From Natronococcus sp. CG52 (GTDB taxonomy: Archaea; Halobacteriota; Halobacteria; Halobacteriales; Natrialbaceae), in the NCBI RefSeq assembly GCF_023913515.1, contig NZ_CP099391.1, positions 1,860,001 through 1,924,000 of the forward strand: a stretch of DNA of 64,000 nt. Direction: 5' to 3'. Below, in pieces: positions 24,625 through 38,383 of this stretch. Each line of letters starts with the position of its first letter. Position 1 is the stretch's first letter. A program made the translations under genes and the position numbers. The notes beneath the pieces were generated by a model. That model saw only the letters and a list, made by a program, of their open reading frames with translations. It searched no databases and had not been told where the DNA came from.

Positions 24625-25648
24625 GTCGTTGCACCTCCAGTCCCTCGGTGACGCGCAGTTCGAGTCGGGCCGCGAGCGACAGGAACACCGAGCCCGCAGC
24701 CAGCAGGAGGGCGCTCGCCGCCAGTTCGACGAGTCCGCGGTCGTCGGACCGGCGTCGGTGGCGGTACAGCGACCGGATTCCGCCGAGGAGGCCGCCACCG
24801 ACCGTGAGCGCGGCGGCGGCGTAGAACAGCGGGACGGGATGGGCGTCGCCGATCGGGTATCGGGTCGCGAGTCGCCGGGCGAAAGATCGCACGAGCAACG
24901 CGGAGAGCTTCGGAACGTACGTGGTGTAGTCGATGGTCGACTCCTCGTCGCCGTAGACGGCCGGCATCGCGACGTCGGCCACGCGCAACTCGTTGGCGTT
25001 GAGCCGTACCAGCAGATCGTTGGGGTAGCCGTAGTCCTCGTACATCGATTCGACGTCGATCGACTCGAGCGCGTACACCGAGATCGCCGTGTACCCGTTC
25101 TGGGGGTCCATCGTCCGCCAGTAGCCGGACGAGACCTTCGTCAGGAGCGTGAGCAGCGCGTTTCCGAACAGCCGGAATCGCGGCATCCCCTTGCGGTAAT
25201 TATCGCTTACCAGCCGGTTTCCCTTCGCGTAGTCGGCCTCGCCGTCGACGATCGGATCCAGCAGCGAGGGCAGGTGGTCGGGATCCATCTGGCCGTCGCC
25301 GGCCATCACGGCCGCGACGTCGAGTCCGTCTTCGAGCGCCCGCAGGTACCCGGTCTTGATCGCGCCGCCCACGCCGCGGTTCTCCGCGTGGCGGATGGGA
25401 ACGGCCCGACGGTCGAACGCCGATCTACCGTTCGCGACGAGCGTGTCGCGTTTCCGGACGGTCGCCCGCGCCTCGTGGTTCACCCGGGCGGCGCGGCGGG
25501 TGATTTCGGTCCAGGTGTCGTCGGTCGATCGGTCGTCGACGACGTAGACGCGGTCGACGTACCTCGGTACCGTCTCGATCACGTCGCCGACGAACTCCGA
25601 TTCGTTGTACGCCGGCACGACGACGCCGATCGTGTGCCCCCTATACAT
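24617..25648 (-). CDS. Family 2 glycosyltransferase with C-terminal membrane helices
   Basis: This 343-aa protein has the GT-A pattern: IGVVVPAYNESEFVGDVIETVP, YVVDDRSTDDTW (nucleotide-sugar Asp), NRGVGGAIKTGYLRAL and MAGDGQMDPDHLP (metal-binding Asp), then MDPQNGYTAI. Two membrane spans lie at the C-terminus (about 285-335). It resembles dolichol-phosphate sugar synthases and related lipid-linked transferases of haloarchaeal glycosylation loci. Start ATG 25648 (MYRGHTIG); the longer frame upstream is not acidic. It overlaps both neighbours by 8 nt. Confidence 0.9.
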   Translation of the reverse strand: MYRGHTIGVVVPAYNESEFVGDVIETVPRYVDRVYVVDDRSTDDTWTEITRRAARVNHEARATVRKRDTLVANGRSAFDRRAVPIRHAENRGVGGAIKTGYLRALEDGLDVAAVMAGDGQMDPDHLPSLLDPIVDGEADYAKGNRLVSDNYRKGMPRFRLFGNALLTLLTKVSSGYWRTMDPQNGYTAISVYALESIDVESMYEDYGYPNDLLVRLNANELRVADVAMPAVYGDEESTIDYTTYVPKLSALLVRSFARRLATRYPIGDAHPVPLFYAAAALTVGGGLLGGIRSLYRHRRRSDDRGLVELAASALLLAAGSVFLSLAARLELRVTEGLEVQRHG

Positions 25649-27146
25649 CGGTTCCCTCCTCCGCTTCGACGCCGCTCTCTCCCGCGTCGCCCTCCGCTGC
25701 TCCATCGCGTCCCGTTCCGATCGTGTACACGCGGTGAGAGTCGGGAACCGCGTCGTCCTCGAGGGCGTCGCGGCCGTCGACCACGACCAGTTCGCCGCCG
25801 TCACGGCCGAGCGCGTTCCAGTCGATCGTCTCGAACTCCTCGTGGGGCGTCACCAGTACTACGGCGTCGAAACCGTGGTCGTCGATCCCTCGCTCGTCGA
25901 TCGACTCGAGCGGAAGCGGCGTCAGCCCGTGTCGCTCGAACGCCTCGAACGACTCGAGCAGCGGATCGACGCCGTAGACCGCCGCTCCGCGCTCGCCCAG
26001 TTTCTCGGTGATCGCGAGCGCCGGCGACGCGCGGATCTCCTCGACGCCGGGGCGGTAGGTGAGTCCGAGTACCAGCACCGAAGCGTCGCCCAGCGCGGTC
26101 CCGGTCTCCGACAGCGCCGCCTCGAGTCGATCGACCGTGTACGCCGGCATCGAATCGTTCACCGCGCGCGCGGCCCGCAACAGCGGCGCGTCGGTCTCGA
26201 ACGGCTCGATCACGAAGTACGGATAGTACGGAATGCAGTGGCCGCCGACGCCGGGGCCCGGGTCGTGGATGTCGCAGTAGGGCTGGGTGTTCGCGAGGTC
26301 GATCGCCTCCCGCACGTCGATTCCGAACTCGTCGGTGAACGTCGCGAGTTCGTTCGCCAGCGCGATGTTGACGTCGCGGTACAGCCCCTCGAAGACCTTG
26401 ACAGTCTCCGCGGTCGTCACGTCCGAGGTGGGAATCACCCCGGACTCGTTGAGTTCGCCGTACACCAGTTCGGCGACGCGGGTGCTCTCGGCGTCGACCC
26501 CGCCGACGACCTTCGGATACGCGCCGCGGATGTCCTCGAGCGCCCGGCCGCTGGAGGTTCGTTCCGGACAGCACGCGAGGCCGAACTCGCCGCGCTCGAG
26601 CCCGGATTCGCCCTCGAGTGTCGGTAGAACTCGGTCCACTGTCGTCCGAGGCGGGACCGTACACTCGACGAAGACCGCGTCGCCGGGTGCCAGTCCCGAA
26701 CCGATCGCCTCGACGGCGGCGTCGAGCGCCGCGAGGTTCGGTTCGCGGTCGTCGGTCAGCGGCGTCGGGACGACGACGACGTGGATCGCGGCCCGGTTCG
26801 CAGCCTCGCTCGGCTCGGTCGTCGCCGCAAGCGCTCCCTCGTCGACGGTTTCGCGCACGAGTTCGGCCAGGCCGGGTTCGCGCTTCACGTGGCAGTCGCC
26901 GTTTTCGACCGAGTCGACGACCGCCGGATCGACGTCCGCGCCGACGACGTTTCCCGTCACGTCGGCGAAGACGGCGGCGAGCGGCAGCCCCATCTTCCCG
27001 AGTCCGTAGACGGCCACCGGAACCGACCCGCTCGTGAGCGCCGAACGCTGTCGGTCGGTCGGGGCAGCTATCCCGTACGGGGACTCGGCGGTATCGTCCG
27101 GCGGACTACCGGTCCGTCGGTGCAGCCCCCGCTCCGAATCAGTCAT
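25641..27146 (-). CDS. UDP-N-acetyl-hexosamine 6-dehydrogenase (WbpA/WecC type)
   Basis: This 501-aa protein has an NAD-binding GLGKMG at residues 48-53, VVVPTPLTDDREPNL, AETVKVFEGLYRDVNIALANE and the catalytic Cys304 within PGPGVGGHCIPYYPY, then a C-terminal UDP-binding domain with LTYRPGVEEIRASPA. It oxidises C6 of a UDP-N-acetylhexosamine to the uronate with two NAD+. The first 40 residues are a low-complexity extension. Together with the next three genes upstream it completes a WbpA-B-E-D set. It overlaps the 27139 gene by 8 nt. Confidence 0.92.
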   Translation of the reverse strand: MTDSERGLHRRTGSPPDDTAESPYGIAAPTDRQRSALTSGSVPVAVYGLGKMGLPLAAVFADVTGNVVGADVDPAVVDSVENGDCHVKREPGLAELVRETVDEGALAATTEPSEAANRAAIHVVVVPTPLTDDREPNLAALDAAVEAIGSGLAPGDAVFVECTVPPRTTVDRVLPTLEGESGLERGEFGLACCPERTSSGRALEDIRGAYPKVVGGVDAESTRVAELVYGELNESGVIPTSDVTTAETVKVFEGLYRDVNIALANELATFTDEFGIDVREAIDLANTQPYCDIHDPGPGVGGHCIPYYPYFVIEPFETDAPLLRAARAVNDSMPAYTVDRLEAALSETGTALGDASVLVLGLTYRPGVEEIRASPALAITEKLGERGAAVYGVDPLLESFEAFERHGLTPLPLESIDERGIDDHGFDAVVLVTPHEEFETIDWNALGRDGGELVVVDGRDALEDDAVPDSHRVYTIGTGRDGAAEGDAGESGVEAEEGTDV

Positions 27147-28125
27147 GCGGCACCTCCACGTCGACCGTTGGCCTGCCCTCGGTCTCCCGCGCCTCGATCT
27201 GCCGTGCGATCTGGAGGGCTGCGAGTCCGTCGTCGACCGTCACCTTCGGCGTCCCGTCCGTTCGGACGGTCTCGAGGAACGACTCGAGTTCGTTCCGCAG
27301 CGGCTCGTCGTTGGGAACGTGGGGTCGCTCGACGAGGCTCTCGTGTCTGAATCGGATATCGCCGCCGTTCTCGACGTACTCCGGCACCGAGCGACGGTGG
27401 ATCTCGATCGACTGGTCGATGTAGTCGACCTCGACGAGACACTCCTCCGCGGTGACCTCGAGCGTCCGCACCTTCCGCTGGGTCAGTCGGCTCGCCGTCA
27501 GCGACGCCATCGTGTCGGAGAACTCGAGCAGGGCTGAGGCGTGACGATCGTCCGCGACGCCGCAGCTCATGACCGCGACGGGCTCCTCCCCGAGCAGCGC
27601 CAGCACGATGTCGATGTCGTGGACCATCAGATCGACGATGGCGCTGTCGTCGATCCGCCGGTCCGGCGGCGGGCCGAGTCGACGCGCGGTAACGCCGATA
27701 ATCGACAGATCGTCGAGGATGGTTTCGAGGGTCTCGACGGCGGGGTTGAACCGTTCGACGTGGCCGACCTGTACCGGCACGTCCGCCGCGGCCGCTTTCG
27801 CTCGCAACTTCCGCCCCGTCTCGGGGTCGTCGACGACCGGCTTTTCGACCAGGGTCGGGACGCCCATCTCCAGGCAGGTCGTCACGACCTCGTAGTGGTG
27901 GACGGTCGGGACGGCGACGGAGACGGCATCGACTCGCTCGAGAAGCGTCTCGAGGGAGGCCGCCGTCGTTCCGTGTCGTCCGGCGACCGCGCTCGCTCGC
28001 TCGGCGTCGACGTCGAAGACGCCGATCAGGTTCGCCGCCGCCAGTTCGTCGTATACGCGCGCGTGGTGCTGTCCCATCGATCCGACCCCGATCACGCCGA
28101 CGTCGAGCGAGCGCTCACCCGCCAT
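27139..28125 (-). CDS. Gfo/Idh/MocA oxidoreductase (WbpB/WlbA-like 3-dehydrogenase)
   Basis: This 328-aa protein has a Rossmann motif VGVIGVGSMGQHHARVY, the family EKP motif (GVPTLVEKPVVDD, Lys near residue 117) and HVERFNPAVE, then a C-terminal alpha/beta domain. In WbpB/WlbA enzymes the 3-hydroxyl of UDP-GlcNAcA is oxidised to a ketone. The assignment follows from the neighbours: the aminotransferase and acetyltransferase next to it would act on that keto sugar. It overlaps the aminotransferase gene by 11 nt. Confidence 0.88.
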   Translation of the reverse strand: MAGERSLDVGVIGVGSMGQHHARVYDELAAANLIGVFDVDAERASAVAGRHGTTAASLETLLERVDAVSVAVPTVHHYEVVTTCLEMGVPTLVEKPVVDDPETGRKLRAKAAAADVPVQVGHVERFNPAVETLETILDDLSIIGVTARRLGPPPDRRIDDSAIVDLMVHDIDIVLALLGEEPVAVMSCGVADDRHASALLEFSDTMASLTASRLTQRKVRTLEVTAEECLVEVDYIDQSIEIHRRSVPEYVENGGDIRFRHESLVERPHVPNDEPLRNELESFLETVRTDGTPKVTVDDGLAALQIARQIEARETEGRPTVDVEVPHD

Positions 28126-29191
28126 AGGACGCGATCACCTCCGCGATACGGTCGACGTCGTCGTCCGAAAGAGCCGGATGGACCGGCACCGAGACGACCT
28201 CGGCGGCCGCCCGCTCGGCGCGGGGAGCGTCGTGGCTCACACCGTCGTAGGCCGGCTGTTCGTGGATACACCGCGGATAGTAGACCGCAGTTCCGACGTC
28301 GTGGGCCTCGAGGCGTTCCCGGAACGCCGCCCGCTCCCGAGCGCGGACGGTATACTGGTGGTAGACGTGCTCGCTGCGGTCGGGGTCGACCGGCGGCTCG
28401 ATCCCGTCGGTCCCCGTGACTGCGGCGGTGAGGCGAGTTGCGTTCTCCCGCCGGCAGGCGACGAACCCGGGAAGCCGCTCGAACTGCGCGCGACCGATCG
28501 CGGCCGCGACGTTCGTCATTCGGAAGTTGTGCCCGACCGACGCGTGCGTGTAGCCGCCGACTCGCCCGTGGTCGACGAATCGCTCGACGCGCTCGGCGAC
28601 GTCGTCGCGGTCGGTCAGGACCATCCCGCCCTCGCCCGTGGTCATGTTCTTCGTCGGATAGAACGAGAAGCAGGCGGCGTCGCCGAACGAACCGACTCGC
28701 TGGCCGCGATAGCTCGCCCCGTGAGCCTGGGCGCAGTCCTCGACGAGGGGAATCTCGAGGTCCGCTGCAAGTTCCACGAAGGCGTCCATCTCCGCGGGAC
28801 AGCCGTAGAGGTGGACGACGAGGATCGCGTCGACGTCCTCTGTGCGCGCTGCGTCGCGGGCCGCCTTCGGTTCGAGGTTGTACGTGACCGGATCGACGTC
28901 GGCGAACACCGGTTCGGCGCCGGCGTGTCTGATTGCGTTCGCCGTCGCGACGAACGAAAACGGGGTCGTGAGGACGCGGTCGCCCTCGCCGATCCCGAGC
29001 GCGACGAGCGCGGCGTGCAGCGCCGCCGTTCCGTTCGCGGTCGCGATCGCGCGATCGGTGCCGCAGTAGTCGGCGAACTCCCGCTCGAACTCGCGGACGA
29101 CCTCGCCCTCGGCGAGCATTCCGGTCTCGAGAACGCGGGTCACGCGATCCACCTCGTCGTCGCCGAGGACGGGACTGGCGATCGGGATCAT
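28115..29191 (-). CDS. DegT/DnrJ/EryC1/StrS aminotransferase (WbpE/WlbC-like)
   Basis: This 358-aa PLP enzyme starts MIPIASPVLGDDEVDRVTRVL and has TANGTAALHAALVALGIGEGDRV, VPLVEDCAQAHGA-type context (LEIPLVEDCAQAHGAS), and the PLP-binding Lys181 in SFYPTKNMTTGEGGM. Sugar aminotransferases of this family convert keto sugars to amino sugars; beside a 3-dehydrogenase and a LbH acetyltransferase it should produce the 3-amino group of a 2,3-diamino uronate. It overlaps the acetyltransferase gene by 4 nt. Confidence 0.92.
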   Translation of the reverse strand: MIPIASPVLGDDEVDRVTRVLETGMLAEGEVVREFEREFADYCGTDRAIATANGTAALHAALVALGIGEGDRVLTTPFSFVATANAIRHAGAEPVFADVDPVTYNLEPKAARDAARTEDVDAILVVHLYGCPAEMDAFVELAADLEIPLVEDCAQAHGASYRGQRVGSFGDAACFSFYPTKNMTTGEGGMVLTDRDDVAERVERFVDHGRVGGYTHASVGHNFRMTNVAAAIGRAQFERLPGFVACRRENATRLTAAVTGTDGIEPPVDPDRSEHVYHQYTVRARERAAFRERLEAHDVGTAVYYPRCIHEQPAYDGVSHDAPRAERAAAEVVSVPVHPALSDDDVDRIAEVIASYGG

Positions 29192-29766
29192 GGTTCGTCG
29201 TTCCCTCCTCGAAGCGGCTCCGGAAGCGGTTCGTGTCCCGCCGGAACGCCGACCGCGAGCGTCTCGGCGGGAACGTCGCGCGTGACGACCGCACCGGCGG
29301 CGACGAACGACCCCCGACCGACGGTGACGCCGGGGAGAATCGTCGCGTTCGCACCCACCGAGGCGTGCTCCTCGAGCGTCGGCCCCTCGAGTTCCGACTC
29401 CTGGCGAAGGGGATACGGATCGTTCGTCAGGACGGCGTTCGGACCGAGGAAGACGTGATCGCCGATCGCCGTCTGCGGCGGGACGTAAACCCCAGTCTGC
29501 AGACTGGCGTTCGAACCGACCGTCGCGGTGCCGTCGATGGTCGCGTTGGTTCCGACGAGGACGTCGTCTCCGATCTCGGTCCGCTCGCGAATCAACGCGA
29601 AATGTCCGGTCCGAAATCGGTCGCCGATGACGACGTCGTCGTAGACGATCGTCCCGGGCCTGATCGCGGGGTCGGATCCGACGACCGGCGGATTCGAGTT
29701 CTCGCTGTACTCGTAGCCGACGGTCGTCGTAACTGCCGTACGTTCGTCTGACAGGCCCTCACTCAT
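29188..29766 (-). CDS. Left-handed beta-helix N-acetyltransferase (WbpD/WlbB-like)
   Basis: This 192-aa protein is built of hexapeptide repeats (IRPGTIVYDDVVIGDRF, IGDDVLVGTNATIDG, IGDHVFLGPNAVLTNDPYP, VGANATILPGVTVGRGSFVAAGAVVTRDVP), ending in AVGVPAGHE as acyl-CoA-dependent sugar acetyltransferases do. LTNDPYPLR matches the loop of WbpD/WlbB that acetylates the 3-amino group. It is the first gene of the operon. I chose ATG 29766 (MSEGLSDE); upstream codons are not acidic. Confidence 0.9.
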   Translation of the reverse strand: MSEGLSDERTAVTTTVGYEYSENSNPPVVGSDPAIRPGTIVYDDVVIGDRFRTGHFALIRERTEIGDDVLVGTNATIDGTATVGSNASLQTGVYVPPQTAIGDHVFLGPNAVLTNDPYPLRQESELEGPTLEEHASVGANATILPGVTVGRGSFVAAGAVVTRDVPAETLAVGVPAGHEPLPEPLRGGNDEP

Positions 29767-30321
29767 GTTCTCTCCCTCGTTCCATGGAGAGAGGGTTTCA
29801 AAAGCCGAAAAGATCGTTGCGAGCGTTAACACGCTCAAATTCCGCTCAAATCACACGTTCGATCTGCCAGAACTCGACCGGTCGGTCGGTTCTGGTTTCG
29901 CTCCGGACACGATTCAAACTCCGGGCTCGCGAGCCGACAACTTCCGGTTACACCGGCAAAACGGGACGTCGAGACGATCGTTCAAGTCGCCGTCAGAGCA
30001 TTTTCCGAGCGGAGTCGGCGCGGAACGAGATCGGCGACGCTCGGCGGTCTCGAGGGATCGCATATCCGAATTACTCCCGCGTGACGGAACAGAACCGGTC
30101 GTTTCGTCGGATACGGTCGGACACTTCCACCGCGAGTTGTCGATCCGTTCGATTCGCGGTATCGGTCCGTCTTCGCGGCGTTCGTCCGCATCGCGCCCTC
30201 GCACTGGCGACGTAGTCGAACGAGCGCGTAACGAGCGAGACGACGCGCCCTCTGCTCGAGTTCGGAAGAAACGGAAGAAACGTCCGATACGGAAGTCGGT
30301 TACCTGACTGATACGTTCGCG
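29767..30321. other. Long intergenic region, no gene seen
   Basis: These 555 bp separate the glycan operon start from the end of the Q/N-repeat gene. Open frames on both strands encode Arg/Ser-rich chains unlike haloarchaeal proteins, so I call it non-coding. It must contain the operon promoter, but I could not find a convincing TATA box; an A/T-rich TTTCAAAAG at about 29789-29797 is the best guess. Confidence 0.45.
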
Positions 30322-31914
30322 TTACGCCGCAACCCAAACGTTCGTCGCAGCAACCGACGTGAACTGGACGTTCTCGTTCTGCTGCATACTCACCTGCGCG
30401 GCGTTCGCGCTGCCGCCGTCGTCAGCGACTGCCAGCGCCATCTGCTGTTCGTTGATGTTCTGCTGGGTAACGAACTGGTGTTGTTCGATCTCCGCGCTCG
30501 CGTACTGGTCGACGTCGTGCGTCTGGTCGCCGTTAGCGGTGTCGTAGTCGTACGACATGCCGGCAGCGCCCTCGATGTCGTTTCCGTCCACGGTCACGGA
30601 CGTACTCTTCGTCTGCGTGACGTCGTCGTGAGCGTAGCTCGGCCCCGCGTAGACGTTAAGCGCCGACGCGTAGCCGATCTGCGCGTTCACGTTCTGTTGC
30701 TGGGCCCACTGCACGGCGGTCGCGTCACTGTCGTTCGTGGCGATCGCCATCGCAGTGTTCTGCAGGTTGACGTTGAGCTGCTCGACGGCCTGTCCCTGGG
30801 TCACTTCGGACGTGGCTTCCTGCGAGATACCGTTCTTGTCGGCCTTCGTGTCGTCGCCGCCGGTCGTCGATCCCTGGGTGGAGACGACGTCGCCGCCGTT
30901 GCCGGCGCTCGCGACGTTCATCCCGGGCATCGAGGCGAGGACGTTCACGGCCTCGGCGGATCCGAGCTGTTCGTTGATGTTGGTCTGCTCGGTGATCTGG
31001 ATCGCCGTTGCGGTGCTGTTCTCGCCGATCGCGATGGCGACGGCAGCACCCTGTTCGTTGACGTTTACCTGTTCAACGTCCTGCCCCTGTTCGACTACCG
31101 AGCTCGCGCTCTGGCTCGCATCCGCGCCGCTCGTTCCTTTCTTCGGCTTGTCGCTGAACTTGCCGTCGCCGAGGTAGACGTTGGACGCGTTAGCGGCACC
31201 GTCTTGCAAGTTGTAGTTGGACTGGGCCGTCTGCTGGAGAGCCGTCGCTTCGCTGTCGTTCGCGGCGAGCGCGAACGCGGTGCTCTGTTCGTTGACGTTC
31301 GCCTGGCTGACGTTCTGCGCCTGGGTGACGGCCGCCTGCGCTTCCTGGCTCGCGGTCAGTTCGTTCTTGTCACCCTTGGTGTCGTTGACACCCCAGCCGT
31401 TGAACTCCTGGCTGTCGCCGTTACCCATGACGAGGTAGACGTCGCCGACGTCCTCGAACTGGGTTTCCTGAATCTGGCCTTCCTGGTTCTCGGACGTCGC
31501 CACGCCTTCCTGAACGTTGGAGTTCAGCTGGCTCGCTTCCTGCACGGCGGTCGCCTCTCCACCGTCGATGGAGATCGAGGTCGCCATACCCTGTTCGTTG
31601 ATGTTTACCTGTTCAACGTTCTGGTATTGAACGACATCGGAGACCGCCTCTTGCCCTTCAGCCGTTGCTCCGGGGTTGTCGGTCACGTGCGCATCGAGGA
31701 ACTCCTCGAGCGATTGCTCGCCGAGATCCGCGCCGAAGACGAGGTAGAGTTCCTCGCCGTCCTCGAGCGCGTGAAGCGTCTTGGAGTCGGCATCCGTGTT
31801 CGTAGTGTCGCCGGCCATCGCTGCCGGTGCGCCGGCGGCCAGCATCGATATGGCGACGATACAGGCCATCAGGACTGTCGTAAGTTGTGAGCGTTTCGTG
31901 TGTGTATTTGTCAT
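30322..31914 (-). CDS. Secreted Q/N-rich repeat protein, curlin-like
   Basis: This 530-aa protein has a Sec-type signal (hydrophobic 11-33, likely cut after AAMA at 34). A short region (53-76, ELYLVFGADLGEQSLEEFL) precedes five ~55-residue repeats at about 92-142, 194-249, 270-326, 368-424 and 473-529. Each repeat follows VxQxQxVxQxNVNEQ..A.A.A......ATA.Q...Q.N.N.Q...A.A.NV, with spaced Gln/Asn, alternating small hydrophobics and almost no Cys. The pattern resembles curlin repeats of CsgA and suggests stacked beta strands. It has no membrane anchor, so it is probably extracellular. Two smaller relatives lie 650 bp and 2 kb away on the other strand. I know of no named family. Confidence 0.85.
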   Translation of the reverse strand: MTNTHTKRSQLTTVLMACIVAISMLAAGAPAAMAGDTTNTDADSKTLHALEDGEELYLVFGADLGEQSLEEFLDAHVTDNPGATAEGQEAVSDVVQYQNVEQVNINEQGMATSISIDGGEATAVQEASQLNSNVQEGVATSENQEGQIQETQFEDVGDVYLVMGNGDSQEFNGWGVNDTKGDKNELTASQEAQAAVTQAQNVSQANVNEQSTAFALAANDSEATALQQTAQSNYNLQDGAANASNVYLGDGKFSDKPKKGTSGADASQSASSVVEQGQDVEQVNVNEQGAAVAIAIGENSTATAIQITEQTNINEQLGSAEAVNVLASMPGMNVASAGNGGDVVSTQGSTTGGDDTKADKNGISQEATSEVTQGQAVEQLNVNLQNTAMAIATNDSDATAVQWAQQQNVNAQIGYASALNVYAGPSYAHDDVTQTKSTSVTVDGNDIEGAAGMSYDYDTANGDQTHDVDQYASAEIEQHQFVTQQNINEQQMALAVADDGGSANAAQVSMQQNENVQFTSVAATNVWVAA

Positions 31915-32394
31915 CGTTCGTGTAATCTCTGACGTGATAGTGTTGCGTTCTGAGCCGATTCGACGCGAACCGTCGTATTTCGATGACAGACATAGTTATC
32001 TGCGAGTTGAAGCGTGTATGAAGCGGCCTACTGATCGGAAAGAGGTACATTGTAGACCGAAGGCATCGTCTTCGGAGTGAAACGAACCCGTTCTACTGCG
32101 TATCGCCGGTATCAACTGGGAGCCGAACCGGCCTCCACGAGGGCGGCAACGAGGGCTACAAAGGGGGTTTCGACGAGGTTCGGAGCACGAATCATTTCGT
32201 TCGTAAGGCGGAATTGTCGTTCAATCCGGTTAATTGCAAACTGTTTTGCCGTCCGAGTTTCGTGACGGGGTCGAACCGTTATCGAGACAACTGTTAACAA
32301 TGCTCGCGATAGTCTCGGCGTATCGTCGACGGCGAGATACCCCTCGCGGACGGACTTTCACACAGATTTCCGTTGTCTCCCCCTTAGAAACACT

Positions 32395-32475
32395 AATACG
32401 CCCATTCGTCCCGAAACTGTTCTCCGGATTCAAGTCGGATTCCGTGATGAGGGACAGTACGGGTAACGCGCCACA
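32395..32475 (+). promoter_or_regulatory. Upstream block shared with the second small Q/N gene
   Basis: Within the 650-bp divergent region (31915-32564), the stretch around CGAAACTGTTCTCCGGATTCAA (split here: CGAAACTGTTCTCC at 32412-32425, then GGATTCAAG) matches the block at 33806-33880 upstream of the second copy at most positions, including a later (G)GG(T/C)AACGCG. Both lie about 90-170 bp before their ATG. It is probably the promoter/regulatory region carried along in the duplication. I see no clear TATA box. The rest of 31915-32564 shows no gene. Confidence 0.5.
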
Positions 32476-32564
32476 GCGGAAACACGTCCGCGGTAGTCAC
32501 GGTGAGCCGTCGCTCCACGCGAGAGACGGCCGCCCTCGCGTGTGGTGTGTCCCGGTGACCAACA

Positions 32565-32969
32565 ATGAAGCGCACACTCACGATCACGCTGACGGTAGCA
32601 CTGATTGGCAGCCTTATGTTCATGGGGTTCGCCGGAACTGCGGCGGCACAGGAACTCGATATCGACGTCGAGCAGGAAACCGGCGACGCGACGAACTACG
32701 CTGAGGTCGACCAGACCAACAACAACGCGCAGGTCGGTATCGCGGAGGCGAACGCGGCCGCAGCGAGTGACGGCCACTCCGATAAGCACAAGAAGTCCGG
32801 TAGCAGTGGCGGCGACGCTTCGGCTGCTGCCTCCGCTAACGTCGACCAGGTGCAGGTCGTTGATCAGAACAACACCGCAACGGTAGATCAGAACGCTGAA
32901 ACCGGAGATAACGAGGCCGAAGTCGAATTCGAATTCGACATCGAGGCTTTCCTCGGCGCCCTCACCTAA
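32565..32969 (+). CDS. Small secreted Q/N-rich protein, tandem copy 1
   Basis: This 134-aa protein starts MKRTLTITLTVALIG with a Sec signal cut after GTAAA (residue 28). The mature ~106 residues hold QTNNNAQVGIAEANAAAA, a flexible charged Gly/Ser/Lys linker (HSDKHKKSGSSGG), then SANVDQVQVVDQNNTATVDQ and an acidic tail ETGDNEAEVEFEFDIEAFLG. VDQVQVVDQNN fits the VxQxQxVxQxN motif of the 530-aa protein with exact spacing, so the three genes form one family. No Cys, no anchor. The sequence is nearly identical to copy 2 at 33970. Likely a small fibre subunit or adhesin-like secreted protein (inference). Confidence 0.85.
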   Translation: MKRTLTITLTVALIGSLMFMGFAGTAAAQELDIDVEQETGDATNYAEVDQTNNNAQVGIAEANAAAASDGHSDKHKKSGSSGGDASAAASANVDQVQVVDQNNTATVDQNAETGDNEAEVEFEFDIEAFLGALT

Positions 32970-32987
32970 GCAATCCGCACGCATCGA

Positions 32988-33002
32988 TTCGTTTTCTTTT
33001 TT
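32988..33002 (+). terminator. Oligo-T terminator of copy 1
   Basis: The run TTCGTTTTCTTTTTT lies 19 nt after the stop codon. The same sequence, with at least 50 further identical bases around it, follows copy 2. Oligo-T tracts end transcription in archaea. Confidence 0.6.
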
Positions 33003-33420
33003 AGCCGCGTACGTCGCGACCCGTCGAGAGACCGTGACCTGTTCGTTGACGGCGTACGGTCACGGCTGAACACGACGCGACCCTCGCGTAGATTCGATCG
33101 TTTCCGTCGTAGAGCGGCGAGATGCGACGCCGAACGCGAGTCACGAAAGTGCGGTAGAGCGCGGCGTCGGTACACTATCGACGACGGAACTCCGCACGTC
33201 GAGTGCTCGAGCAGAAGATCTCGACGATCCGGGGCCGTCACCGCCGCCCTCCGTTCCGGACGGGACCGGTTCTCGAACTGACGTCCGTGCTGCGTAGCGA
33301 GCGAGGAACGCACCAGGGCGGGACCCGCGAATCCGCCGAAGTAGGCCGAACGCGTCTCGGACCGGCCCTTCCGGGAACGGTTTCGATCGTTCTCCTCACG
33401 CGGTGCGCGCCCGAGGTTGA

Positions 33421-33580
33421 CGACGAAATCACCTCACGATCACGCCGAGGGCAGCACCGATCAGCGCCCCCGCGCACGTGGAGGTACACGAAAACGGAAA
33501 CAGCAGAGACCGTCACCATCGAGACGGGGCGGAAACCGGCGCCCAGGCGACCTCTGCGACGGTCATCAGGATCGCCGTTC
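33421..33580 (+). pseudogene. Decayed third copy of the small Q/N-protein gene
   Basis: CTCACGATCACGC at 33433-33445 equals bases 13-25 of the two intact copies, and GAAACCGGCG at 33532-33541 equals their bases 112-121. The distance between these blocks is 99 nt in all three, so no net indel has occurred. About 70% of the first 51 aligned bases match by hand count, and about half over 99. The start codon is lost, the reading frame no longer encodes the protein, and similarity fades after about 33580. Translated out of frame, HDHAEGSTD parallels HDHADGSTD of the intact copies, confirming common ancestry. The rest of 33003-33805 shows no gene. Confidence 0.6.
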
Positions 33581-33805
33581 GCGTACAAATTCTTCACGGG
33601 CGAGTTTTCGATCCCGAACGCGTCGAACTCGTTTTCCCGCGCGGACCGAATCTCATCGCGGCCTTCCTCGCGACCGTTCGGATCCTCGATCCGTTCTCAC
33701 GGCCCGTCCAGACGATCCGCTCTCATCAGAGATTTCCCATCCGGGACGGCGAAACGCGACGCTGAAACGATCGGACCGCGAGGAATAGCGGGGCGATACA
33801 GCCGA

Positions 33806-33880
33806 TGAATCGATACTTTCGGCACGAAACTGGTCTCTGGGTTCAAGTACTGTTCCGTGCTGACGATCAATCGGGCAACG
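33806..33880 (+). promoter_or_regulatory. Upstream block shared with the first small Q/N gene
   Basis: CGAAACTGGTCTCTGGGTTCAAG (start 33825, written here in parts: CGAAACTGGTC, TCTGGGTTCAAG) and a later GGGCAACGCG match the block at 32395-32475 upstream of copy 1. The distance to ATG is 145 nt here and 153 nt there. The intervening bases have diverged, which suggests that the block is under constraint. Confidence 0.5.
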
Positions 33881-33969
33881 CGTCACCGAAGTGGGTCGCA
33901 ATAGCGTTGAGCGAACGACTCGCTCGATAGTATCGGATCCGTTCGTGTGACGCGTGCCACTTCTAAACA

Positions 33970-34368
33970 ATGAAGCGCACACTCACGATCACGCTGACGG
34001 TAGCACTGATTGGCAGCCTCATGTTCATGGGGTTCGCCGGAACTGCGGCGGCACAGGAACTCGATATCGACGTCGAGCAGGAAACCGGCGACGCGACGAA
34101 CTACGCCGACGTCAACCAGACCAACAACAACGCGCAGGTCGGTATCGCGGAGGCGAACGCGGCCGCAGCGAGTGACGGCCACTCCGATAAGTACAAGAAG
34201 TCCGGTAGCAGTGGCGGCGCTTCGGCTGCTGCCTCCGCTAACGTCGATCAGGTGCAGGTCGTTGATCAGGACAACACCGCAACGGTAGATCAGAACGCTG
34301 AAACCGGAGACAACGAGGCCGAAGTCGAATTTGACGTCGAGGCTTACCTCGGCATCCTCAACGGCTAA
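33970..34368 (+). CDS. Small secreted Q/N-rich protein, tandem copy 2
   Basis: This 132-aa protein differs from copy 1 by few residues: a Glu/Asp and Asp/Asn exchange near residue 51, His to Tyr in the linker, a missing Asp, one Asn to Asp, and a shorter, different C-terminus (EFDVEAYLGILNG). The signal peptide and the VDQVQVVDQ motif are the same. Nearly all bases are identical over the first 360 nt although the upstream DNA has diverged, which points to purifying selection or gene conversion. The unit length from ATG to ATG is 1,405 bp. Likely the same role as copy 1. Confidence 0.85.
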   Translation: MKRTLTITLTVALIGSLMFMGFAGTAAAQELDIDVEQETGDATNYADVNQTNNNAQVGIAEANAAAASDGHSDKYKKSGSSGGASAAASANVDQVQVVDQDNTATVDQNAETGDNEAEVEFDVEAYLGILNG

Positions 34369-34585: not shown

Positions 34586-35932
34586 TCACTCCTCGAGCGA
34601 ACGGCGATACCGGGCGTTCGCCCGCTCGAGAACCGTTCGGACTGGCAACCCGGTCTTCGCCGCGACGGCCAGCGCGTCGTCGTACTCCGCGCTCACGTCG
34701 TACACCTCCCCGTCGACGTCGCTCGCGATTTTCACGGTAACCTCGTAGCGCTCTCCGTCGATCTCGAGCGCCACCGTTTCGAACTCCCGCTCGGCGATCC
34801 AGCGGTGGGTCGCGCCGGCGTCGCGGACGCCGAGCGTTCCCGTCTCCTCGGCTAGCGCCCGCGCGACCCGCTCGCGGTCTTCCGGCTTGCAGATCACCTT
34901 CACGAGGTGGCCGGGCCGGGACTTCTTCATCGTCGCCGGGATAATCGAAACGTCGCGCGCGCCCGCGCTCGCGAGAGTTTCCTGAAGTCCGCCGAGCACC
35001 TCCGGTGTCGCGTCGTCGAGGTTCGTCTCGAGCACCGCGATGTCGTCCTTCGCGAGTTCGTTCCCGCCGTCCCCCACTAGCGCCCGGAGCACGTTCGGGT
35101 GCGGATCGAGGTCGTAGCCGCCGCCGCCGTAACCCGAGTCCTCGAGGTCGAGCGACGGCAGCGATTCGACGCCGTCGGCCAGGTGGCCGAGGATCGCCGC
35201 TCCCGTCGGCGTCAACAGCTCCGCATCGACCGGGCCGCCGCGGAGCGGCCAGTCCGCTCGCTGGGCAATTTCGACGACCGCGGGCGTCGGGACGGGGTAC
35301 TCGCCGTGGCTCATCGAGACCGTCCCGCCGCCGGTCGCGAGCGGCGTCGTTACGATCCGCTCGGGCTCTATGTCGTGGACGAGCGCGACTGCGCCGACGA
35401 CGTCCGCGATCGCGTCGTCGGCGCCGACCTCGTGGAAGTGGATCTCCTCGAGGGATTCCCCGTGGACGCTCGCCTCGGCCTCCCCCAGTAGCTCGAAAAT
35501 TGCGAGCGCGTCGCGTTCGATCGCCGGCTCGAGGTTCAGTTCCTCGACGATCTTACGGACCTCGAGGTAGCTACGGTGGGGGCCGTGGCCCTCGGCGTGG
35601 ACGCCCTCGTCGTGCGCGTGTTGGTGGTTTTCTTCGCCGTGATCGTAGTCGTGCGAGTGGTCGTGATCGCCGTCGTGATGGTGCTCGTACCCATCGTCGT
35701 GGCCCTTCTCGTGATCGGTCGATCGGTCACCGTCGGCGTCGGCATCCGTCAGGATCACGTCCACGGTCGTCGCCGCGATGCCGCTCTTGACCGCCTCGTC
35801 GATCCGATACTCCAGGTCCAGCGACGTCGTGACGGGCTCGAGCGCCGTCGGATCGGCCCCGGCATCGAGCAACGCGGCGAGGATCATGTCACCGCTTGCA
35901 CCCATTCGGCCGTCGAACGCGAGCGTTTGCAT
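34586..35932 (-). CDS. larC: LarC nickel insertion protein
   Basis: This 448-aa protein matches LarC (pyridinium-3,5-bisthiocarboxylate mononucleotide nickel chelatase): start MQTLAFDGRMGASGDMILAALLDAGAD, then EIHFHEVGADDAIADVVGA, TPTGAAIL, VLETNLDDATPEVLGG and IIPATMKKSRPGHLVKVIC. Residues 63-120 form a His/Asp-rich loop that probably stores nickel. LarC makes the nickel-pincer cofactor of lactate racemase-type enzymes. Neither larB, larE nor a larA-like gene is in the window. The single-gene form (no LarC1/LarC2 frameshift) is used. The start is ATG 35932; upstream codons are not conserved. Confidence 0.93.
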   Translation of the reverse strand: MQTLAFDGRMGASGDMILAALLDAGADPTALEPVTTSLDLEYRIDEAVKSGIAATTVDVILTDADADGDRSTDHEKGHDDGYEHHHDGDHDHSHDYDHGEENHQHAHDEGVHAEGHGPHRSYLEVRKIVEELNLEPAIERDALAIFELLGEAEASVHGESLEEIHFHEVGADDAIADVVGAVALVHDIEPERIVTTPLATGGGTVSMSHGEYPVPTPAVVEIAQRADWPLRGGPVDAELLTPTGAAILGHLADGVESLPSLDLEDSGYGGGGYDLDPHPNVLRALVGDGGNELAKDDIAVLETNLDDATPEVLGGLQETLASAGARDVSIIPATMKKSRPGHLVKVICKPEDRERVARALAEETGTLGVRDAGATHRWIAEREFETVALEIDGERYEVTVKIASDVDGEVYDVSAEYDDALAVAAKTGLPVRTVLERANARYRRSLEE

Positions 35933-35970
35933 ACTGCAACGAGCGACCGGCGGAGTCAAAAATCCACCTT

Positions 35971-36154: not shown

Positions 36155-38383
36155 ATGAACGAAGTCCAACTGGAGGTTGCGAAGGCGTACCCGAACGACT
36201 CGGGTCGTGGCATCGCCCGACTCGACCCGGACACGCTGTTGCATCTCAAGCTAAGTCCGGGCGACATTATCGAGATCGAAGGTGCAGATACGACTGCCGC
36301 AAAGGTGTGGCGTGCTGACCGGCAGGACTGGAACACCGATACCGTCCGCATCGACGGATTCACCCGGCAGAACGCCGATGTTGGCATCGGCGAACGGGTG
36401 ACGATCCGAAAGGCGGAGGCGACGAAGGCGGACAAACTCGTCCTCGCGCCGCCGGAGGAGGCGTCGGTCCAGTTCGGATCGGACGCCGCCGGCATGGTCA
36501 AACGGCAGATTCTGAAACGACCCGTCGTCGGCCGGGACATCGTTCCCGTGATGTCCTCGACGAACCATCCGTTCATGCGGTCGCCCGGCCAGGCGATCCC
36601 GCTGATCGCGGTCGAAACCGAACCGGAGGGCGTGGTCCTCATCACCGAGGACACGGACGTCGAACTCCGGGAGGAGCCGATCTCCGGCTTCGAGAAGACC
36701 GGCGGCGGGATCACCTACGAGGACATCGGCGGCCTACAAGGAGAGATCCAGCGGGTGCGCGAGATGGTAGAGTTGCCGATGAAACATCCCCAGATCTTCA
36801 AGAAACTGGGGATCGAGCCGCCCCAGGGGGTCCTGTTACACGGACCGCCGGGGACGGGGAAGACGCTGCTCGCCAAGGCGGTGGCCAACGAGACCTCCGC
36901 CAGTTTCTTCTCCATCGCCGGCCCCGAGATCATCTCGAAGTACTACGGGGAGTCCGAACAGCAGTTACGCGAGATCTTCGAGGACGCGAGCGAGGAGTCG
37001 CCCGCGATTATCTTCATCGACGAACTCGACTCGATCGCGCCCAAGCGTGAGGACGTGACCGGCGAGGTCGAGCGTCGGGTCGTCGCCCAACTGCTCACGA
37101 TGATGGACGGCCTCGAGGCTCGCGGCCAGGTCATCGTCATCGCGGCGACCAACCGGGTCGACTCGGTCGACCCCGCGCTCCGTCGCCCGGGTCGGTTCGA
37201 CCGCGAGATCGAGATCGGCGTCCCCGACGAGGTGGGTCGCGAGGAAATACTCCAGATCCACACGCGCGGAATGCCGCTCTCGGACGACGTCAACCTCGCA
37301 CATCTGGCCGACGAGACCCACGGCTTCGTCGGCGCCGACATCGAGTCGCTGACGAAGGAGGCCGCGATGAAGGCCCTTCGCCGGTACCTGCCCGAGATCG
37401 ACTTGGACGAGGAGGACATCCCGCCGAGCCTGATCGACCGGATGATCGTCAAGCGCCAGGACTTCCGCGGCGCGCTCAACGAGGTCGAACCCTCGGCGAT
37501 GCGGGAGGTCCTCGTCGAACTGCCGAAGATCTCCTGGGACGACGTCGGCGGTCTCCACGATGCGAAAGAGCAGGTCAAGGAGTCCGTCGAGTGGCCGCTG
37601 AACAACCCCGAACGGTTCGACCGGCTGGGAATCGATCCGCCGGCCGGCGTCCTGCTGTACGGTCCGCCGGGCACCGGGAAGACGCTGATGGCTAAGGCGG
37701 TCGCCAACGAGACCAACGCGAACTTCATCTCGGTGCGCGGCCCGCAGTTGCTCTCGAAGTGGGTCGGCGAATCCGAGAAGGCCATCCGCCAGACCTTCCG
37801 CAAGGCGCGGCAGGTCTCGCCGACGGTGATCTTCTTCGACGAACTCGACGCGCTGGCGCCGGGCCGTGGCGGCGAGGTCGGTTCAAACGTCTCCGAGCGG
37901 GTCGTCAACCAGCTGCTGACCGAACTCGACGGTCTCGAGGAGATGGAGAACGTGATGGTCATCGGCGCGACGAACCGTCCCGACATGATCGATCCCGCCC
38001 TGCTGCGGTCGGGTCGATTCGACCGGCTGGTCATGATCGGCGAACCCGACATGGAGGGCCGCGAACGGATTCTCGACATCCACACGGAGCACACGCCTCT
38101 CGCCGCGGACGTCAACCTGCGCGAGATCGCCGAGATCACGGACGGCTACGTCGGAAGCGACCTCGAGTCGATCGCCCGCGAGGGAGCGATCGAGGCACTG
38201 CGCGAGGACCACGAGGCCGACATCGTCGAGATGCGTCACTTCCGTCAGGCCATGGAGAACGTCCGACCGACGATCACCGACGACATCCTCGACTACTACG
38301 AGCAGATCGAAGAGGAGTTCCAGGGCGGCTCGAGCGGCCCCGACCCGACCGGCCGCCGGGGCAGTCGGATCGGCTTCCAGTAG
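36155..38383 (+). CDS. cdc48: CDC48/VAT-type AAA+ ATPase
   Basis: This 742-aa protein has an N-terminal double-psi barrel and N-c subdomain (1-185), then D1 with Walker [19 protein letters not shown] (about residue 231), Walker [15 protein letters not shown] and an arginine-rich [19 protein letters not shown], and D2 with a second [18 protein letters not shown] and [15 protein letters not shown]. It unfolds proteins for the proteasome and remodels complexes. The C-terminus ends [10 protein letters not shown] and lacks the classical HbYX ending. It is a single gene with a 222-bp upstream region shared divergently with larC. Confidence 0.97.

Follow-up and report, generated by a model that had tools for sequence, protein, structure and literature searches.

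What might three secreted, glutamine- and asparagine-rich proteins encoded within 4 kb of a haloarchaeal chromosome form outside the cell? The genes lie in a stretch of 64,000 nucleotides from Natronococcus sp. CG52 (contig NZ_CP099391.1, positions 1,860,001 to 1,924,000; hereafter the window, to whose first letter all coordinates refer). An earlier note, made from the sequence alone, had read them as a curli-like amyloid system with a large and a small subunit. All three open reading frames are present. One encodes a secreted protein of 530 aa with five repeat units (LARGE, 30322..31914, minus strand), which has orthologues of similar length across the Natrialbaceae. The other two, on the plus strand, encode small secreted Gln/Asn-rich proteins, SMALL-1 (134 aa, 32565..32969) and SMALL-2 (132 aa, 33970..34368). 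In our assessment there is about an even chance that LARGE and SMALL build a fibre or matrix of amyloid-like (cross-beta) type, an unnamed system of haloarchaea in which LARGE, with five units, is the major subunit and SMALL, with one, the minor. The earlier reading is partly supported: what it observed is confirmed in a stronger form than it was given, but its curli label is wrong as a claim of membership.

LARGE starts with a Sec-type signal peptide, as the earlier note had proposed (residues 1-36; 31807..31914, minus strand). Its KR n-region, hydrophobic core and AMAG cleavage region were recognized by inspection and orthologue alignment. Downstream lies a conserved N-terminal segment (residues 50-80, LEDGEELYLVFGAD...EEFLDAH; 31675..31767, minus strand), in which L50, E51, E54, L56, Y57, L58, F60, G61, A62, D63, E70 and E71 are near-invariant in the orthologue alignment. 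The protein consists of 10.8% Gln and 8.5% Asn, together 19.2% compared to 4.4 +/- 1.7% in other genes of the window, a comparison confined to window genes picked as coding through a composition filter. Its net charge is about -62. The orthologue from Natronococcus pandeyae, to which the source genome is close, shares 92% identity (Ka/Ks 0.041/0.162), and the orthologues are under purifying selection with Ka/Ks of about 0.18-0.42.

The five repeats of about 55 residues described earlier hold in number and length (56-57 aa each), but they are not contiguous: linkers of 46, 22, 40 and 49 residues separate them. By repeat alignment and unit profile, all on the minus strand, unit 1 comprises residues 88-143 (31486..31653), unit 2 residues 190-245 (31180..31347), unit 3 residues 268-324 (30943..31113), unit 4 residues 365-420 (30655..30822) and unit 5 residues 470-525 (30340..30507). 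The unit consensus is QxAxAxVxQxQxVxQxNxNEQxxAxAIAxxGSxATAxQxxxQxNxNxQxGxAxAxN, and inspection shows Q-x3-Q-x-N-x-N-x-Q in both of its halves. A profile built from 45 units matched 14 other genomes and in all of them counted five units per protein, no more and no fewer; the one among them with two such proteins has ten.

To characterize these units, we analyzed conservation across 37 LARGE orthologues. Every second residue is conserved (entropy autocorrelation -0.47 at lag 1 and +0.62 at lag 2), and the alternation contrast of 1.09 lies 13 standard deviations above shuffled sequences (sd 0.084; maximum of 0.32 in 5000 shuffles). The regular spacing reported before is therefore far beyond what shuffles produce, and the alternation statistics together with shuffle and reversal controls rule out chance Gln/Asn richness. 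The linkers show no alternation. The conserved face of the units consists of 34% Gln, 25% Ala and 21% Asn, with Gln and Asn amounting to 55% and charged residues to 0.2%, while the opposite, variable face is 26% charged. Among 112 near-invariant columns, 56 are Gln or Asn (odds ratio 7.7, with a p value of 1e-16 that is nominal since the rows are related). Such a pattern typifies extended strands whose interior is uncharged and made of Gln, Asn and Ala and whose acidic exterior faces the brine. LARGE has imperfect repeats with conserved Asn and Gln, as do functional amyloids of the imperfect-repeat class.

Are the small proteins related to these units, or do they merely share their composition? 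Both begin with signal peptides recognized by inspection (32565-32648 and 33970-34053, plus strand), which share the conserved signal MKRTLTITLTVALIGSLMFMGFAGTAAA; all three proteins are, as their signals indicate, secreted or surface-exposed. The LARGE profile picks up the two small genes of the window with E values of 4e-5 and 3e-4, and reciprocally the small-family profile picks up the LARGE units. An hhalign comparison of LARGE units and small family gave an E value of 1.5e-6 over 47 columns, which bears out the earlier impression that the small proteins are of the same kind. SMALL-1 contains both half-units of one LARGE-type unit and scores 20.6 bits against the unit hidden Markov model (HMM), compared to 9.0 for the best of 2600 shuffles and 16.5 for the best reversed sequence. 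In Haladaptatus salinisoli, a species of another family, plasmid-encoded small proteins beside LARGE contain one intact unit (hhalign E 1.9e-14; BLASTP 8e-11 against the window LARGE). The SMALL proteins are therefore genuine homologues of LARGE, each built around one unit. SMALL-1 and SMALL-2 stem from a recent tandem duplication: they share 92% identity, with Ka at 0.030 and Ks at 0.057, and the sequences 3' of the two genes are nearly the same.

Larger members of the small family, of about 257-343 aa, carry an extra domain inserted between the half-units (L080 7548-8495, L088 7514-8323, L158 3580-4611). In strains of Natrinema and Haloterrigena, a secreted protein of about 296 aa with two AIDTITFYNDDGGELEQ domains is encoded near the LARGE locus (at about 2.5-5.3 kb in L105, L106, L108 and L111), and its signal peptide is of the same type as that of the SMALL proteins.

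The pairing of a large and a small protein is conserved well beyond the window. In our class sample, LARGE occurs in 55 of the 74 listed Natrialbaceae genomes, the source genome included, and elsewhere in the order in five genomes, two of which show marginal partial matches only. Annotated plasmids add Haladaptatus and Halomicrococcus. The module extends throughout Natrialbaceae and into Haladaptataceae. Viral contigs encode no relative, and a viral origin was set aside. At 40 of the 44 named loci whose upstream sequence reaches 3 kb or more, LARGE has upstream of it, in divergent orientation, between one and four genes for small secreted Gln/Asn-rich proteins (median start-to-start distance to the nearest 637 bp); at one of the 44, such a gene lies downstream. 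LARGE and SMALL hence form a conserved module, and homology and synteny suggest that a related minor subunit is encoded beside the major one. The order LARGE, SMALL, larC and CDC48 is repeated in many genera.

Some genomes depart from this arrangement. In one Natronococcus genome (G007), the larC/CDC48 locus (L066 5941-11016) harbours three small genes but no Sec-class LARGE, and a Tat-class LARGE lies at another site; the partners can thus be separated or lost. In another genome, one of two LARGE copies is interrupted by a single in-frame TGA (G172:C1:2023882-2025429) and is possibly a decaying gene, while the other copy is intact.

Does the module have a control region of its own? The earlier note had suggested complex control on the basis of long gaps, which are indeed present: 555 bp between LARGE and its upstream-numbered neighbour when counted from an internal ATG near 29766 (483 bp from the TTG at 29838), 650 bp between LARGE and SMALL-1, 1000 bp between SMALL-1 and SMALL-2, and 217 bp beyond SMALL-2. 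These gaps contain conserved putative promoter blocks. Block A (GATAACAAAGTC; consensus AGATAACAAAGTC) lies 86-130 bp upstream of the LARGE start codon and has the form AGATAACTATGTC in the window (31989..32001, minus strand). The core GATAACAAA was found in 18 of 21 non-redundant LARGE loci, with a maximum of 4 after shuffling. Across 14 genomes, block A is essentially restricted to this locus, the few extra sites corresponding to about the number expected by chance. Block B (GAAACCGTTnnnCGGGTTCAAGT...GGGCAACGCG) precedes the small genes. It reads GAAACTGTTCTCCGGATTCAAGT...CGGGTAACGCG before SMALL-1 (32413..32470, plus strand) and GAAACTGG...CTGGGTTCAAGT...CGGGCAACGCG before SMALL-2 (33826..33882, plus strand); the strict pattern, seen at the SMALL-1 site, occurs nowhere else in the whole genome. 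The two blocks thus look like different and largely private, locus-specific promoter elements. A wider regulon was discarded, as A is found about once per genome and B strictly at this locus. The sole Rfam match, a plus-strand RNA thermometer at 30843-30945 that falls within the LARGE reading frame, reached 24.4 bits against a gathering threshold of 125 and is most likely due to chance.

Next, we asked whether the module belongs to a known amyloid system. Searches of Pfam, NCBIfam and PDB returned no family match for LARGE or SMALL, in agreement with the earlier note, and weak matches were discarded as composition or signal-peptide noise. Our open-access literature searches yielded no description of the family, and the papers searched contained no curli/Fap-style repeat-built functional amyloid from haloarchaea. 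The suggested relation to curlin failed: PF07012 matched neither the whole genome (the E. coli control was positive) nor LARGE/SMALL family members, and hhalign of the units and the small family against the K-12 CsgA/CsgB repeats gave probabilities of 0.7% and 1.2%. No genes for CsgG/E/F or CsgD occur at the locus, to whose neighbouring genes the look-up for CsgG/E/F was confined. What the two systems share is a major and a minor subunit of one repeat family, the style of the Gln/Asn ladder, a long intergenic control region and the hemi-motif (S/N)-x-Psi-x-Psi-x-Q, which is over-represented in the LARGE family. However, curlin repeats are contiguous and about 22 aa long, whereas the LARGE units measure about 56 aa and sit on linkers.

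The anatomy of LARGE is closer to that of FapC. FapC, a proven amyloid, has three imperfect repeats of about 38 aa, in which highly conserved Asn and Gln residues form a hydrogen-bond network, and its linkers are long and flexible; in the Fap system the repeat number is nearly fixed, and the minor subunit carries repeats of this type too (PMC12392863, PMC12822426). LARGE and SMALL likewise resemble FapC and FapB in being secreted, in imperfect repeats, several tens of residues long, that alternate invariant Asn/Gln with Ala or hydrophobics, in variable flexible linkers and fixed repeat number, and in a related minor subunit gene nearby. Nevertheless, LARGE has five units with a different motif, SMALL one unit instead of the three repeats of FapB, and the genes are divergent instead of forming an operon; LARGE is also acidic and archaeal, with no outer membrane to cross. 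Compared with the motif gNqQN-Psi-(a/s)-Psi-(a/s) reported for FapC (PMC12392863), the unit consensus has only the tail N-x-Q-x-x-A-Psi-A in common. This sub-motif, which was chosen post hoc, occurs once per unit (204 in 37 proteins compared to about 3 in shuffles).

Could the module descend from curli or Fap, as a divergent archaeal version of either? The similar hydrogen-bonding residue types and the resemblance of the sub-motif to the end of the FapC motif (PMC12392863) speak for it. Against it stand the negative curlin comparisons, a unit profile that retrieved no FapC or CsgA chain from PDB at E <= 10, and a locus with neither csg accessory genes nor fapA, D, E or F. We consider such descent highly improbable; convergence is the simplest reading of the sub-motif, and LARGE is not a Fap member. 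It is possible, at somewhat under an even chance, that repeat-built functional amyloids evolved a third time, in archaea and independently of curli and Fap, and that the module represents this type, with a five-unit fibre subunit and a one-unit starter or cap. Such a type would combine an acid coat for saturated brine, direct export over one membrane with no pore of its own, and archaeosortase anchoring in some species. Archaeal extracellular amyloid-like proteins with imperfect repeats are known from the methanogen sheaths, namely MspA / SH of Methanospirillum and Methanosaeta (PMC6242892, PMC10593813). MspA differs in having two repeats of about 80 aa, in building a sheath and in its archaeal group; MspA/SH were not among the PDB sequence or fold matches of LARGE, and no direct comparison was made.

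How could such a fibre be built? LARGE would leave the cell via Sec, and each unit of about 56 residues would form long beta-strands linked by turns. The near-uncharged Gln/Asn/Ala/Val face would pack inside in side-chain hydrogen-bond ladders, and the acidic, variable face would contact the brine. Units might stack within the chain, five per molecule, with the flexible linkers looped out, and molecules might stack end to end into a self-assembled cross-beta fibre or matrix outside the cell. The divergent SMALL, with its one unit or two halves, could start, cap or cross-link the stack.

Several results weigh against polymerization. Structure prediction, proposed in the earlier note, did give paired long strands in every unit, which speaks for the fibre reading, but at low confidence: the AlphaFold2 model of LARGE, built from 37 sequences, shows several strands per unit, two of them long and paired in all five units, with block means of pLDDT of about 45-76 in units and below 50 in the disordered-looking linkers, and reaches a mean pLDDT of only 49.8 and a pTM of 0.42. 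Set beside the Greek-key cross-beta layer expected of each repeat in Fap, it offers several strands per unit at this low pTM. The model of the small protein (mean pLDDT 51.7, pTM 0.17) is too poor for use. Foldseek detected no significant fold match in PDB. FapC, the only proven amyloid among the non-significant LARGE matches, accounts for two of just six at E <= 10 (E values of 8.5 and 9.8; TM-scores 0.06-0.14), at best a hint in favour of the fibre reading. The pair has no gene for a chaperone, for secretion or for nucleation next to it, SMALL itself excepted, and a few LARGE genes in the 44-locus set have no small gene nearby. A sister class about 40% identical to LARGE carries the Tat-like signal KRRGYLKGLAA, and a Tat signal means that a protein folds before export. 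Finally, the alternating conservation also fits a folded beta protein that does not polymerize.

This last option, a protein of folded beta-repeats on the cell surface or close to it, such as an adhesin, an S-layer-associated protein or a stalk, is the main rival, and we regard it as rather unlikely. The five units would then make a closed or solenoid stack within one chain, with SMALL as binding partner or spare single-unit form. The absence of an anchor noted earlier holds for the window LARGE, which has no match to the PGF-CTERM tail (TIGR04126), and for most orthologues, but not for all relatives: those at loci L046, L049, L051, L158 and L159 score above the curated cut-off, and several orthologues, likewise in Halomicrococcus, end in an acidic linker and a PGF-CTERM domain. 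The family name of PGF-CTERM (archaeosortase A) proteins denotes the anchor and not the protein body; the anchor places these relatives at the cell surface. Natrononativus amylolyticus has both forms, a free chromosomal LARGE with three small genes (L043) and an anchored plasmid LARGE (L062/L159). The anchors and the Tat-like sister class therefore leave room for a folded surface protein, and the strict five-unit count and conserved N-terminal segment suggest a defined particle. However, most LARGE proteins lack an anchor, the conserved face is Gln/Asn-rich instead of hydrophobic, which is unusual for a globular core, and characteristic unit numbers also occur in FapC and CsgA.

The genomic neighbourhood provides no conserved fibre-assembly genes; the synteny consists of two housekeeping genes outside the system, a larC-like nickel-insertion protein (34586..35959, minus strand; PF01969, E 2.6e-130) and a CDC48-type AAA ATPase (36155..38383, plus strand; PF00004 and CDC48 domains). 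On the other side of LARGE, adjacent minus-strand genes at 25641-29838 encode a UDP-glucose/GDP-mannose dehydrogenase, a GFO/IDH/MocA oxidoreductase, a DegT aminotransferase and a hexapeptide acyltransferase. Together these four resemble a pathway that makes nucleotide sugars for a glycan of the cell surface, and three of them also adjoin LARGE in both closest relatives. This adjacency, the negative charge of LARGE and the low-confidence linkers of its model would suit a largely disordered acidic matrix or hydrogel polymer that holds water and ions or binds polysaccharide, its repeats acting as sticky patches with no ordered cross-beta core. We consider this improbable, because the strict two-residue alternation and the near charge-free face in 37 orthologues imply tightly constrained extended strands.

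What would an amyloid-like LARGE/SMALL system mean for haloarchaea? The biofilm matrix of Haloferax volcanii stains with the amyloid dyes Congo red and Thioflavin T, with no gene known for it (PMC4180959). That putative amyloid is likewise haloarchaeal; members of the LARGE family turned up only in genomes of Natrialbaceae and of the Haladaptataceae type. LARGE and SMALL offer a candidate of two defined and conserved genes in species that can be cultured and, if the fibre reading is true, would be a genetic candidate for an amyloid-type matrix in haloarchaea. As Natrinema gari carries the system and genome editing is established for strain J7-2 (PMC10433800), the fibre question is directly testable. 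A positive answer would show a Gln/Asn ladder fibre working in saturated salt with one membrane, and would provide a salt-stable fibre scaffold.

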